A DNA stretch of 32,175 nt from Clostridiisalibacter paucivorans DSM 22131 (GTDB taxonomy: Bacteria; Bacillota; Clostridia; Tissierellales; Clostridiisalibacteraceae), in contig NZ_JHVL01000041.1 of the NCBI RefSeq assembly GCF_000620125.1, positions 1 through 32,175 of the forward strand, given 5' to 3'. The number at the start of each line of letters is the position of its first letter. Position 1 is the first letter of the stretch. This document shows positions 6,842-31,793 of this stretch, in pieces. A model generated the notes under the pieces. It saw only the letters and a program-made list of their open reading frames with translations. It was not told the DNA's origin and made no database searches. The position numbers and the translations under genes are program-made.

Positions 6842-7435
6842 ATGGAAAAAATAGAATATTTAATCAACAGTTGTATTATGGCTATTGTCCCTGAATATGT
6901 AAAAAACAAGGGCAATGCCATGTTGGTTATAACTAAAAACAGCTCTCCAGTTTACATATATAGAAGATTAGTTACAGTTCTAAGGTGGATTGGTAAATAT
7001 TTTTTTATAGATATATCTGCTGCAAAAAGATTTTCACGTGATGTATTGGGACATAGTAATATAGTACCTATTCCCTTTAACATAAAAAATATATTTATTC
7101 CATTAAAAGTCAGAAGCACCCTATCTAAAAACGATAGTGCCTTTGGATATTTTAATATGTCATATATAAAAGATATAAAAAAACAAGGAGAGCAAGTATT
7201 TGTCTCCTTGGATAACGATATTGATATACAAATTATACAAAGATACGAAACTGCCAAAAGACATTTTAATGACGGGGAAATTATACAACGTATATATAAT
7301 AATAGACAATATGCATATCTCGTTATGGAAGATTCTGCAGATTTTTATAAAAAATTTAATCAACCCGCTACTAAAGGAGATATAGCTTCATTGAGAAATG
7401 AGATAATAGACCTATTAAATACTATCTCCAAATAA
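6842..7435 (+). CDS. ComK-like regulatory protein
   Basis: The 197-residue product follows the layout of ComK, the competence transcription factor of Bacillus. It has an opening YLINSCIMAIVPE (Bacillus: YEVNGATIAVLPE), a central VPIPFNIKNIFIPLKVRS (Bacillus: KPPIMVDPSNQIFLFPTLS), then a GYFNMSYIKDIK stretch, a VFVSLDNDIDI strand and a charged tail. ComK binds AT-box DNA and drives late competence genes such as comF. The CxxxGSSYxGR segment of Bacillus ComK is replaced by a diverged WIGKYFFIDISAAKRFS. GGAGGTG lies 7 bases before the ATG. It diverges from recD2-comFC and so lies beside a comF-type gene. I judge the homology by pattern alone; function in competence is inference. Confidence 0.55.
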   Translation: MEKIEYLINSCIMAIVPEYVKNKGNAMLVITKNSSPVYIYRRLVTVLRWIGKYFFIDISAAKRFSRDVLGHSNIVPIPFNIKNIFIPLKVRSTLSKNDSAFGYFNMSYIKDIKKQGEQVFVSLDNDIDIQIIQRYETAKRHFNDGEIIQRIYNNRQYAYLVMEDSADFYKKFNQPATKGDIASLRNEIIDLLNTISK

Positions 7436-7440
7436 AAAAA

Positions 7441-7527
7441 TATAAAATAAATTAGCAGTTAGTAGTTTAACGATAAAATCCATAGGATTTGCCCCTTCAA
7501 CTACTAACTGCCAACTATTAACTAATT
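7441..7527. repeat. Palindromic GTAGT/ACTAC repeat, copy 4
   Basis: The left arm is gcagttagtagttt, the core is AAATCC-at-AGGATTT (about 7477-7490), and the right arm is aactactaactgccaac. It fills the gap between two convergent genes and ends two bases from the DUF2922 stop codon. Confidence 0.8.
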
Positions 7528-8053: not shown

Positions 8054-8620
8054 TTAAATATTTACTATGCTTTGTAATTTTTTTATTGCTACTTTTTTTG
8101 TATTCACTACAGTCCTATAGCTTATACCTAGTCTTTCTGCTATTTCCACCATTGTTATACCATCAATATAAAACATCTCAATTATTTCTTTTTGTCTCTT
8201 GGTCAATTCAGATATCGCCCTATTAAGCACAACCAATTCTTGATTCCTTATCAATATATGGTCTATACTAGGTATATCATCTTTTAGTGTATCTATAATC
8301 TCTATTTGCTCATCTGTTGATATGGTCTGATTCAGAGATATAGCTATCTTTTTAGTCTTATGTTTATCTAAATAATGATACCTAAGCATTGTCTTTACAT
8401 ATCCTAAAAATTCCGTCTGTCTATGGGAACTGTACTCATTTATACATCTCAGTACCACTTCAAATCCCCCTTGAATCAAATCATCATATTGTTTTGTATC
8501 ATTGAAATATCTCCTTATAGAGGATAATATCAATGGTTTTAGTCTCAATATCAATTTTCCCTTAGCGTCTATATCACCTAATTTAGATTTTATAACCAAT
8601 TCATTTATCTCTTCATACAT
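8054..8620 (-). CDS. Sigma-70 family RNA polymerase sigma factor (small, group 4/5-like)
   Basis: The 188-residue protein has an N-terminal region 1/2-like part (INELVIKSKLGDIDAKGKL, then YDDLIQGGFEVVLRCINEY) and a region 4 helix-turn-helix near the C-terminus (LTKRQKEIIEMFYIDG, then MVEIAERLGISYRTVVNTKK). Regions 2 and 4 without a full region 3 fit a specialised sigma factor, similar in architecture to TcdR/UviA/BotR-type or SigH-like factors. GGAGGT lies 7 bases upstream of the ATG at 8620. The frame is open for 19 more codons upstream, but those codons fall in a hairpin that contains the binding site, so I use 8620. It precedes DUF1659 and DUF2922 genes. Which promoters it serves is unknown. 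Confidence 0.85.
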   Translation of the reverse strand: MYEEINELVIKSKLGDIDAKGKLILRLKPLILSSIRRYFNDTKQYDDLIQGGFEVVLRCINEYSSHRQTEFLGYVKTMLRYHYLDKHKTKKIAISLNQTISTDEQIEIIDTLKDDIPSIDHILIRNQELVVLNRAISELTKRQKEIIEMFYIDGITMVEIAERLGISYRTVVNTKKVAIKKLQSIVNI

Positions 8621-8694
8621 AAAGAATACCTCCATATATTTGAAAAGGCCCTTTCTATTTACCGGCACCTTCATCATATATGGAGGTATTCTTT
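8621..8694 (-). promoter_or_regulatory. Long hairpin covering the sigma gene's ribosome binding site
   Basis: Two perfect 19-base inverted arms, aaagaatacctccatatat at 8621-8639 and its reverse complement at 8676-8694, flank a 36-base loop. In the sigma transcript the 3' arm contains GGAGGT and ends immediately before the ATG at 8620, so pairing would hide the ribosome binding site. The loop contains a further small palindrome (AAAGGGCCTTTT). On the plus strand the outer arm is followed by a T-run, so a terminator for antisense transcription is an alternative reading. Confidence 0.65.
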
Positions 8695-8736
8695 TTTTAA
8701 AATTAAGACTTTATTTAAGTATAAGTAGTAGTTACA

Positions 8737-9952: not shown

Positions 9953-10111
9953 AAAAACCCCTTCCTAAAGGAAGAGGTATGTACTTACCATATAGACCTC
10001 ATCTTCCAGAATACATATTCTGTGGGATTTAGCACCTTCATATTGAATATTGGTTGCCGGGTTTCATCGGGCCCATTCCCTCCACCTCTCTTGATAAGGT
10101 ATCAAGATTTT
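9953..10111 (-). promoter_or_regulatory. SAM-I (S-box) riboswitch with terminator, upstream of metK
   Basis: Read on the minus strand, the leader contains the S-box consensus blocks in order: CTTATCAAGAGAGGTGGAGG, GGGCCCGATGAAACCCGGCA, and AAGGTGCTAAATCCC. It ends in a stem with GGAAGGGG followed by a TTTTTATTTT tract (about 9953-9980), which is the expression-platform terminator. Ligand binding is known to favour termination in this family. Confidence 0.96.
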
Positions 10112-12427: not shown

Positions 12428-12474
12428 TAGTCCATAGTTCGCAGCTAATTCTAACTACGAACTATGAACAACTA
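12428..12474. repeat. Palindromic GTAGT/ACTAC repeat, copy 5 (short)
   Basis: The arms catagttcg and cgaactatg pair exactly around agctaattctaacta-type centre sequence, with further aacaacta at the end. It sits 5 bases from the stop of the GerM-type gene, in the 168-base gap before rph. The GAAATCC core is absent. Confidence 0.6.
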
Positions 12475-14119: not shown

Positions 14120-14243
14120 AAATTATTCCCCCTTAAAGTTTTTAAAATGGTGTCTTTTTTATGTATACCCTAATAGATATTCTATATTCTATATAGACAA
14201 GGTATTGACAAACATACAGTTATAATGAAGGTATAAAATAAAA

Positions 14244-14338
14244 GTTAGTAGTTCGTAGCTAGTAGTTAGTAGTTGATGGTGGAAATCCTCTGGATTTCCA
14301 CCATCAACTACTAACTATTTACTACTATCTACTAACTA
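14244..14338. repeat. Palindromic GTAGT/ACTAC repeat, copy 6 (best hairpin)
   Basis: This is the cleanest copy. Bases 14264-14288 and 14292-14316 are perfect 25-base inverted arms with a three-base TCT loop, with GAAATCC/GGATTTC at the tip. The outer part is agttagtagttcgtagctag on the left and ctactatctactaacta on the right. It ends 10 bases from the amidase stop codon. No T-run follows. Confidence 0.88.
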
Positions 14339-14347
14339 TAATATATA

Positions 14348-20735: not shown

Positions 20736-20840
20736 TATTTTCCCCCTTTAATCCTATTTTATCAAACTAATAGATTACCTGTCCAAAGTATTCAAAAATC
20801 CTATCTACAAAAGCTTTGTTATCCAAAGACATAATATAAA

Positions 20841-20939
20841 ACAGTTAGTAGTTCGTAGCTAGTAGTTAGTAGTTGATGGTGGAAATCCTATGGATTTCAT
20901 CATTATACTACTAGCTACTAACAATTAACTACTAACTGT
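20841..20939. repeat. Palindromic GTAGT/ACTAC repeat, copy 7
   Basis: The ends are acagttagtagtt and aactactaactgt, exactly inverted. Inside is gttcgtagctagtagttag, then gatggtggaaatcctatgg, then the core GGATTTC. It lies 76 bases from the cstA stop codon, in the 279-base gap before the CPBP-type gene; the rest of that gap shows no gene. Confidence 0.88.
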
Positions 20940-21014
20940 CTTCATTCAGCTCAGTAACTGTTCCCATACCTTTGTTATTAGGCTAAAGATATGAAACAGC
21001 ACTTGAAAATTTTA

Positions 21015-25883: not shown

Positions 25884-25976
25884 AGAGATATAAAAAAAGT
25901 TAGTAGTTAGCTTAATGCTGGAATCTATAAGACCTCCACCATTAACTACCAACTACTAACTACTTTTATATCTCTG
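25884..25976. repeat. Palindromic GTAGT/ACTAC repeat, copy 8
   Basis: The ends are inverted (agagatataaaaaaagttag at left, tacttttatatctct at right) around arms with agttagtagttag and aactaccaactactaac. The core is diverged. It lies 44 bases from the rubrerythrin stop codon, between the flanking 15-mer direct repeats. Confidence 0.8.
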
Positions 25977-29443: not shown

Positions 29444-30016
29444 ATGTGGATATACGAGAAAAAGATACAATACCCAATAAGGGTAGATTCATGTAACCCT
29501 ACCCTAGCAGCTATGATTTTAGAACAATTTGGTGGAGCTGATGGTGAACTATCTGCTGGTATAAGATACCTCACCCAAAGATGGTCTATGCCCACTGATC
29601 AAGCAAAAGGAATCCTTACAGATATAGGTACAGAGGAACTAGCCCACTGGGAAATGATTGGTACTATAGTTTGGAAACTTATAAAAGATGCCCCCATAGA
29701 AAAAATCAAAGGCACTCCCTTTGAAGCCCATTATGCAAATCATGGAAAAAGTCCGTTCCCCCATGATGCAGCTGGAGTTCCATGGACTGCTACCTTTATT
29801 CAATCAAAGGATGACCCCATAGCAGATATTCATGATAATATGGCAGCAGAACAAAAGGCTAGAGCAACCTATGAACACCTTATAAATCTAAGTGACGACC
29901 CTGGAGTGATTGACTCATTAAGATTCTTAAGAGAAAGAGAAGTTGTACACTATCAAAGATTCGGCGAGACTCTAAGGATAGTGGAAGAATATAAAGATAG
30001 TAAGAGATATTATTAG
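29444..30016 (+). CDS. cotJC: CotJC manganese catalase-like spore coat protein
   Basis: The 190-residue protein is a ferritin-like manganese catalase relative. It has the diiron/dimanganese-type helices with Glu/His: LEQFGGADGELSAGIRYLTQ, GTEELAHWEMIGTIVW and HYQRFGETLRIVEEY. It follows cotJB with AAGGAGG at the start and is 12 bases downstream. Its stop codon lies at the edge of repeat copy 10. A catalase-type function in protecting the spore is inferred from the family. Confidence 0.94.
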   Translation: MWIYEKKIQYPIRVDSCNPTLAAMILEQFGGADGELSAGIRYLTQRWSMPTDQAKGILTDIGTEELAHWEMIGTIVWKLIKDAPIEKIKGTPFEAHYANHGKSPFPHDAAGVPWTATFIQSKDDPIADIHDNMAAEQKARATYEHLINLSDDPGVIDSLRFLREREVVHYQRFGETLRIVEEYKDSKRYY

Positions 30017-30110
30017 TTAGTAGTTCGTAGCTAGTAGTTCGTAGTCGATGGTGGAAATCCTATGGATTTCATCATTAAACTAATAACTACTAGCTACTTA
30101 CTAATAACTT
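30012..30110. repeat. Palindromic GTAGT/ACTAC repeat, copy 10 (contains the cotJC stop)
   Basis: The left arm is attagttagtagttcgtagc, the middle is gatggtggaaatcctatgg with the GGATTTC core, and the right arm ends in ctacttactaataact. The cotJC TAG at 30014-30016 lies inside it. It fills the gap between convergent cotJC and trpB. Confidence 0.88.
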
Positions 30111-31361: not shown

Positions 31362-31610
31362 AAAATCCCCTATATGCATATACGCATATAGAGGACGATT
31401 ATTTACACCGCGGTACCACCTCAATAATTACAATTGTAACCACTTATTTCAGATACGGGACTATCATAAATATCCGATATCCTATCTCTATAACGGGAGA
31501 GTACCGTGTTTGCCTACTATAATTCAGCTCCAACTCATAAGCCCATTCAATATATTATCAAATATTCGGATTCCACCACCCCGAACTCTCTATAATTTTT
31601 TAATATATCT
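31362..31610 (-). promoter_or_regulatory. T-box riboswitch with terminator, upstream of trpB (Trp specifier)
   Basis: Read on the minus strand, stem I begins with AGAGAGTTCGGGGTGGTGG, a UGG lies in the expected specifier region (31543-31545, context GAATGGGC), and the T-box sequence AGGTGGTACCGCGG is at 31408-31421. A terminator stem of TCCTCTATATGC type with a TTTTTTATTTT tail is at 31352-31396. UGG is the tryptophan codon, so uncharged tRNA-Trp should permit transcription. Confidence 0.95.
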
Positions 31611-31793
31611 ACTATCCTTAATCAAAGTTTTATTTTATATTATTTTTAGTCATTATAATATTACTTGTCTAATATGTCAACTAAATTCTTTCATTTTTAT
31701 AATCATAAAACTAAGGTATAATCAAAATTCTCTAAGATTTAACCACTCTTCAACATATATCCTAGAAAGATACATCAGTGCTTCTTTATTATT

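Follow-up and report, generated by a model that had tools for sequence, protein, structure and literature searches.

A hairpin with arms of 19 bp encloses the ribosome binding site (RBS) of a sigma factor gene in Clostridiisalibacter paucivorans DSM 22131. Sequence comparison, folding predictions and analogy with known systems together suggest that this stem probably blocks translation only of RNA that reads through from the upstream metK gene, sparing the RNA that is transcribed from the gene's own promoter. The 5' arm is predicted, from the sequences of related loci, to be promoter DNA that is absent from the gene's own mRNA. The features concerned are listed below in transcriptional order; the window denotes the whole stretch of 32,175 nucleotides that was analysed.

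9957..10100, minus strand: SAM riboswitch (9996-10100) and terminator (9978-9957) upstream of metK; Rfam RF00162, 90.2 bits
8737..9924, minus strand: metK (S-adenosylmethionine synthetase); its stop codon is followed after about 61 nt by the -10 box, with no terminator in the interval
8708..8720, minus strand: upstream dyad ACTT-N5-AAGT, -54 to -42; column conservation in 59 loci, alignment and pattern match
8696..8701, minus strand: -35-like TTTAAA; in relatives T is almost constant at -35/-34, in fixed register
8676..8694, minus strand: 5' arm of the 19-bp stem, from sequence and fold; covers -28 to -10 of the promoter, from the spacer halfway into the -10 box
8673..8678, minus strand: -10 box TATGAT; T, A and T invariant in the alignment, distance from the leader core tested unforced
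8666..8666, minus strand: predicted sigma transcription start (+1 = G8666), a purine, 7 bases after the -10 box
8662..8666, minus strand: P1 core GCCGG, at the 5' end predicted for the mRNA; CCTAGG, CCCGGG, CCGG or GCTAGC in relatives
8644..8654, minus strand: P2 palindrome AAAGGGCCTTT in the own-promoter leader, from leader comparison
8621..8639, minus strand: 3' arm of the 19-bp stem, from sequence and fold; +28 to +46, containing the SD GGAGG (8633-8629)
8054..8620, minus strand: sigma-70 family sigma factor gene, 188 aa; Pfam Sigma70_r2 and r4_2, TIGR02937
7788..8015, minus strand: DUF1659 gene of the sigma operon; PF07872, 80.1 bits
7529..7747, minus strand: DUF2922 gene of the sigma operon; PF11148, 90.8 bits

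The 19-bp Hairpin

The arms on the minus strand are AAAGAATACCTCCATATAT (8694-8676) and ATATATGGAGGTATTCTTT (8639-8621); as exact reverse complements they form 19 of 19 pairs around a loop of 36 bases, and the sigma ATG (8620-8618) adjoins the end of the 3' arm. Sequence and fold thereby bear out an earlier sequence-only reading, which had described exact 19-base arms and a 3' arm that carries GGAGGT and abuts the start codon. The hairpin is real and lies far beyond chance: the fold of 8735-8600 yields -39.4 kcal/mol compared with -19.4 ± 3.4 for dinucleotide shuffles (z -5.9, with 0 of 200 shuffles as good), and uninterrupted complementarity to the SD region runs to 19 bases in the window, at most 8 in 58 related loci and 6–10 in shuffles.

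The 19-bp arms were absent from all 58 related Tissierellales loci compared, the window being the only one of the 59 loci in which a complementary arm was found. The hairpin is thus known from one genome only, and selection on it is not demonstrable by covariation. A mobile repeat was ruled out as its source because the sole match to the hairpin stretch in the whole genome is the stretch itself, unlike the dispersed repeats elsewhere in the window. The latter are imperfect inverted repeats (7452-7514, 12430-12469, 14238-14342, 20838-20942, 25884-25975 and 30015-30109), several of which share AGTTAGTAGTT and GGAAATCC / GGATTTC, and they resemble a small mobile palindromic repeat family. An invertible promoter switch seems improbable: the loop is very short and is oriented as it is in every relative.

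Promoter and Predicted Transcription Start

Of 249 genomes searched from the order Tissierellales, 90 gave the sigma gene at E <= 1e-25, and a previously undescribed promoter-leader, common to 59 Tissierellales loci, lies upstream of it. Across most relatives the conserved part corresponds to the loop region and not to the arms, and it shows the order TANNNT, six bases, a purine, CC(TA)GG or CCGG, GGNAATA, a palindrome and the SD. In the 59-locus table the search pattern itself imposed TA...T and the purine, and the conservation of those columns therefore rests on two other alignments or tests. One of these, an alignment of 27 leaders anchored on the CC..GG core only, with the -10 columns not required, has the T, A and T of the -10 hexamer as its sole invariant columns. 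The other applied core-only anchoring to 89 loci, in 64 of which the CC..GG core is present; TANNNT occurs at the expected offset from the core in 59 of the 64 (53 at one offset and 6 one base away), with 24 and 22 loci at two secondary offsets five bases to either side and 0–8 elsewhere. Of the 64 core-bearing loci, 60 have a purine at the predicted +1.

In the window the promoter reads TTTAAA-17-TATGAT and was also chosen by a promoter scan. We infer that transcription starts at about 8666, inside the loop, and that the own-promoter sigma mRNA would consequently lack the 5' arm. A start within the loop had been named in the sequence-only reading as an observation that would speak against it, and such a start is now predicted by the comparison. 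The -35 match is weak, which leaves room for a start further upstream. The promoter spacer is poorly conserved among relatives and free to vary. Upstream of the -10 box, two features that were not criteria for locus selection keep a fixed register in the relatives: T at -35/-34 and, at -55 to -41, the dyad GANTT-N5-AANTC, whose counterpart in the window (8720-8708, minus strand) is likely to be a regulator site. Searches of the organism's own genome with patterns and models of P1 plus promoter found only the sigma site clearly above background and, given this single clear site, a shared regulon of the sigma factor was dismissed.

metK, Terminators and Accessibility of the SD

The SAM riboswitch and its terminator control metK and hence any read-through from it. 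In nineteen of the 59 promoter-bearing loci, including the window, metK lies on the same strand no more than 260 nt upstream. All 18 such relatives have an intrinsic terminator between metK and the sigma gene, 13 of them identified by scan and five by eye from folds with U-tracts (L006, L007, L017, L047 and L096). Scan and folds revealed no intrinsic terminator in the metK-sigma interval of the window, where the gap (61 nt) is the shortest among the 19 loci, and because of this missing terminator we assume read-through from metK. Ribosomes translating metK reach their stop codon about 43 nt short of the 5' arm and, judging from the sequence, should not open the stem.

The cost of opening the SD was obtained by partition-function folding, with the read-through RNA starting in metK and the own RNA at 8666. 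The predicted values are 18.9 kcal/mol for the read-through RNA and 5.1 for the own-promoter RNA, and the difference of 13.8 is the largest of the 59 loci, the next being 7.2. In the predicted read-through RNA the SD bases are unpaired with probability 0.00 and they are still fully paired at 70 °C. This predicted stability excludes an RNA thermometer, and with it the heat that had earlier been proposed as one opener of the stem. The own-promoter leader is itself predicted to be moderately folded over the SD. Rfam searches with the sigma leader of the window and of 11 related loci gave no family at gathering score, the sub-threshold matches being to unrelated families, and a known riboswitch or leader family was dismissed on these grounds.

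Proposed Role and Alternative Readings

In the mechanism that we favour, sigma mRNA from the own promoter would start at about 8666, without the 5' arm and with a usable SD. Low SAM would let RNA polymerase past the riboswitch, and transcription would continue beyond metK into the sigma gene. The resulting read-through RNA would carry both arms and fold into the 19-bp stem, ribosome binding would be blocked, and the sigma factor would not be produced from metK transcripts. Stem formation would be limited to RNA from upstream, such as metK read-through, because the own mRNA would lack the 5' arm, and the stem may in this way do the insulating job of the relatives' intrinsic terminator. The proposal made from the sequence alone, that the hairpin hides the RBS, would hold for RNA beginning upstream of 8694, but the view of such RNA as the main sigma mRNA is probably wrong.

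That earlier view implies a gate, with sigma mRNA starting upstream of 8694 and the stem being opened by a protein, a ligand or translation of an in-frame ORF. The stem does cover the SD exactly and end at the start codon, and the in-frame ORF which had been noted is present (207 aa, 8054-8677) and crosses the stem. However, its first ATG (8677), which takes two bases from the end of the 5' arm, is preceded by no SD and comes before the predicted transcription start, so that it would not be on the own-promoter mRNA. Taken with a conserved promoter that places +1 inside the loop, an arm found in no relative, a stem predicted to be intact at 70 °C and the lack of an Rfam family at gathering score, this makes a translational gate unlikely. 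It is also improbable that the stem acts on the RNA itself, as a weak terminator or an RNase III site ending or cutting the metK read-through RNA. It occupies the place of the relatives' terminators, its 3' arm is U-rich downstream of GGAGG (UAUUCUUU) and a T-run follows the stem on the opposite strand, but the loop of 36 bases and the A+T-rich stem are unfavourable, and on the minus strand the terminator scan made no call at the stem and no U-tract follows it.

The hairpin could, further, have arisen by a recent template-switch mutation in which the SD region was copied backwards into the promoter spacer, without a selected role. Perfect arms without a compensated mismatch, their occurrence in one genome only and a spacer that is free to vary are all consistent with such an event. 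We nevertheless consider this unlikely, given that the hairpin coincides with the only missing terminator among the 19 metK-linked loci, exactly covers the SD and reaches to the start codon, and leaves the -10 box intact.

Comparison with Known Systems

The hairpin arrangement has already been described for B. subtilis sigG and for T4 gene e, and the present locus would, by analogy in its mode of action, be another instance. For sigG, a hairpin of 20+ pairs was proposed to block translation of the spoIIGA-sigE read-through RNA and is not formed from PsigG (PMC5942855). Both cases concern a sigma gene with an RBS hairpin only in RNA from upstream, by prediction in the window, and a second, short RBS hairpin in the own-promoter leader of sigG (PMC5942855) has predicted counterparts in most of the relatives studied here. 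Unlike sigG, the present gene encodes another sigma factor, its upstream neighbour is metK under a SAM riboswitch, and relatives of the locus use a terminator instead. In T4 gene e (lysozyme), an RBS-sequestering stem contains the late promoters in its 5' strand; the early read-through RNA is silent and the late RNA well translated, and the leaders of soc, 49 and I-TevI stand beside that of gene e as close known systems (PMC3014915). The window shares with these systems an SD predicted to lie in a long stem of upstream-started RNA and, as in gene e, a promoter within the 5' strand of the stem, here a predicted one; the T4 genes are phage timing genes whereas the sigma gene is chromosomal. For the IS10 and IS50 transposases, RNA entering from outside folds over the RBS and own-promoter RNA does not. 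They differ from the present case in belonging to mobile elements, with the arm being the element's terminal repeat.

The Conserved Leader Palindromes

P2 is centred near +20 and is palindromic in nearly all loci despite differing sequence, with variants including GGAAGGCGCCTTCC, GATGAGTACTCATC, AGGGACGTCCCT, GAGAGCGCTCTC and GAAAGCTAGCTTTC. Pairing of its left and right halves averages -9.66 kcal/mol within a locus versus -5.13 ± 0.30 for halves exchanged among the loci, and pairing of the right half with the SD gives -7.67 versus -6.69 ± 0.19 when swapped, contrasts that ignore relatedness and are not probabilities. For 27 distinct P2 sequences, selected solely by their outer pairs, Watson-Crick pairing extends to the two central pairs in 21 and 22 sequences. 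Since central pairs are needless for a hairpin loop, P2 may be a dimer DNA site or an RNA-RNA contact, besides or in place of a translation switch. The P2 of the window has a right half that pairs weakly with the SD (-3.7), and the usual short SD hairpin is thus reduced there.

Searches with a profile of the element gave roughly one strong site in each genome, nearly always preceding the sigma gene, and the matches at E <= 1e-5 among 391 sampled genomes of the class were confined to Tissierellales. A similar promoter-leader lies directly before DUF1659-type genes at four loci (L167, L168, L174 and L178), whose genomes are outside the list of those with a close sigma relative at E <= 1e-25. We tentatively consider it possible that the Tissierellales sigma gene is governed by a previously undescribed cis-element composed of the upstream dyad, the palindrome P1 at the start site and, at about +20, a P2 that remains self-complementary through its centre as its sequence changes and whose right half is also able to pair with the SD; the element might act as a two-state leader or a dimer-binding site and form a module with a ComK-like regulator.

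Neighbouring Genes

Domain matches agree with the earlier description of a sigma factor gene followed by DUF1659 and DUF2922 genes. At two loci that were read in genome G014 (L066 and L067, contig C1), the DUF1659/DUF2922 genes lie upstream, not downstream, of the sigma gene, and this genome carries four paralogous copies of the sigma factor. A ComK-like gene (6842-7435, plus strand; Pfam ComK 26.0 bits, cut-off 22.3) is convergent with the sigma operon of the window. Homologues, with Pfam scores on both sides of the cut-off, occur near the sigma gene in 50 of the 90 loci, including those without metK, DUF1659 and DUF2922. The sigma and ComK-like genes possibly constitute a competence module. 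A literature search yielded one incidental mention of DUF1659 and no paper on both Tissierellales and ComK. Elsewhere, the window carries a T-box leader (31388-31634, minus strand; 124.2 bits).

Significance

After sigG, this would be a second sigma factor gene that is seemingly shielded from its neighbour's transcription by folding and not by termination, and the locus offers a natural comparison, with a terminator in 18 relatives and a hairpin in the one that lacks a terminator. The conserved leader is less explained than the hairpin and is the more interesting part: a promoter-leader found so far only within the Tissierellales, adjoining a ComK-like gene and directly testable.
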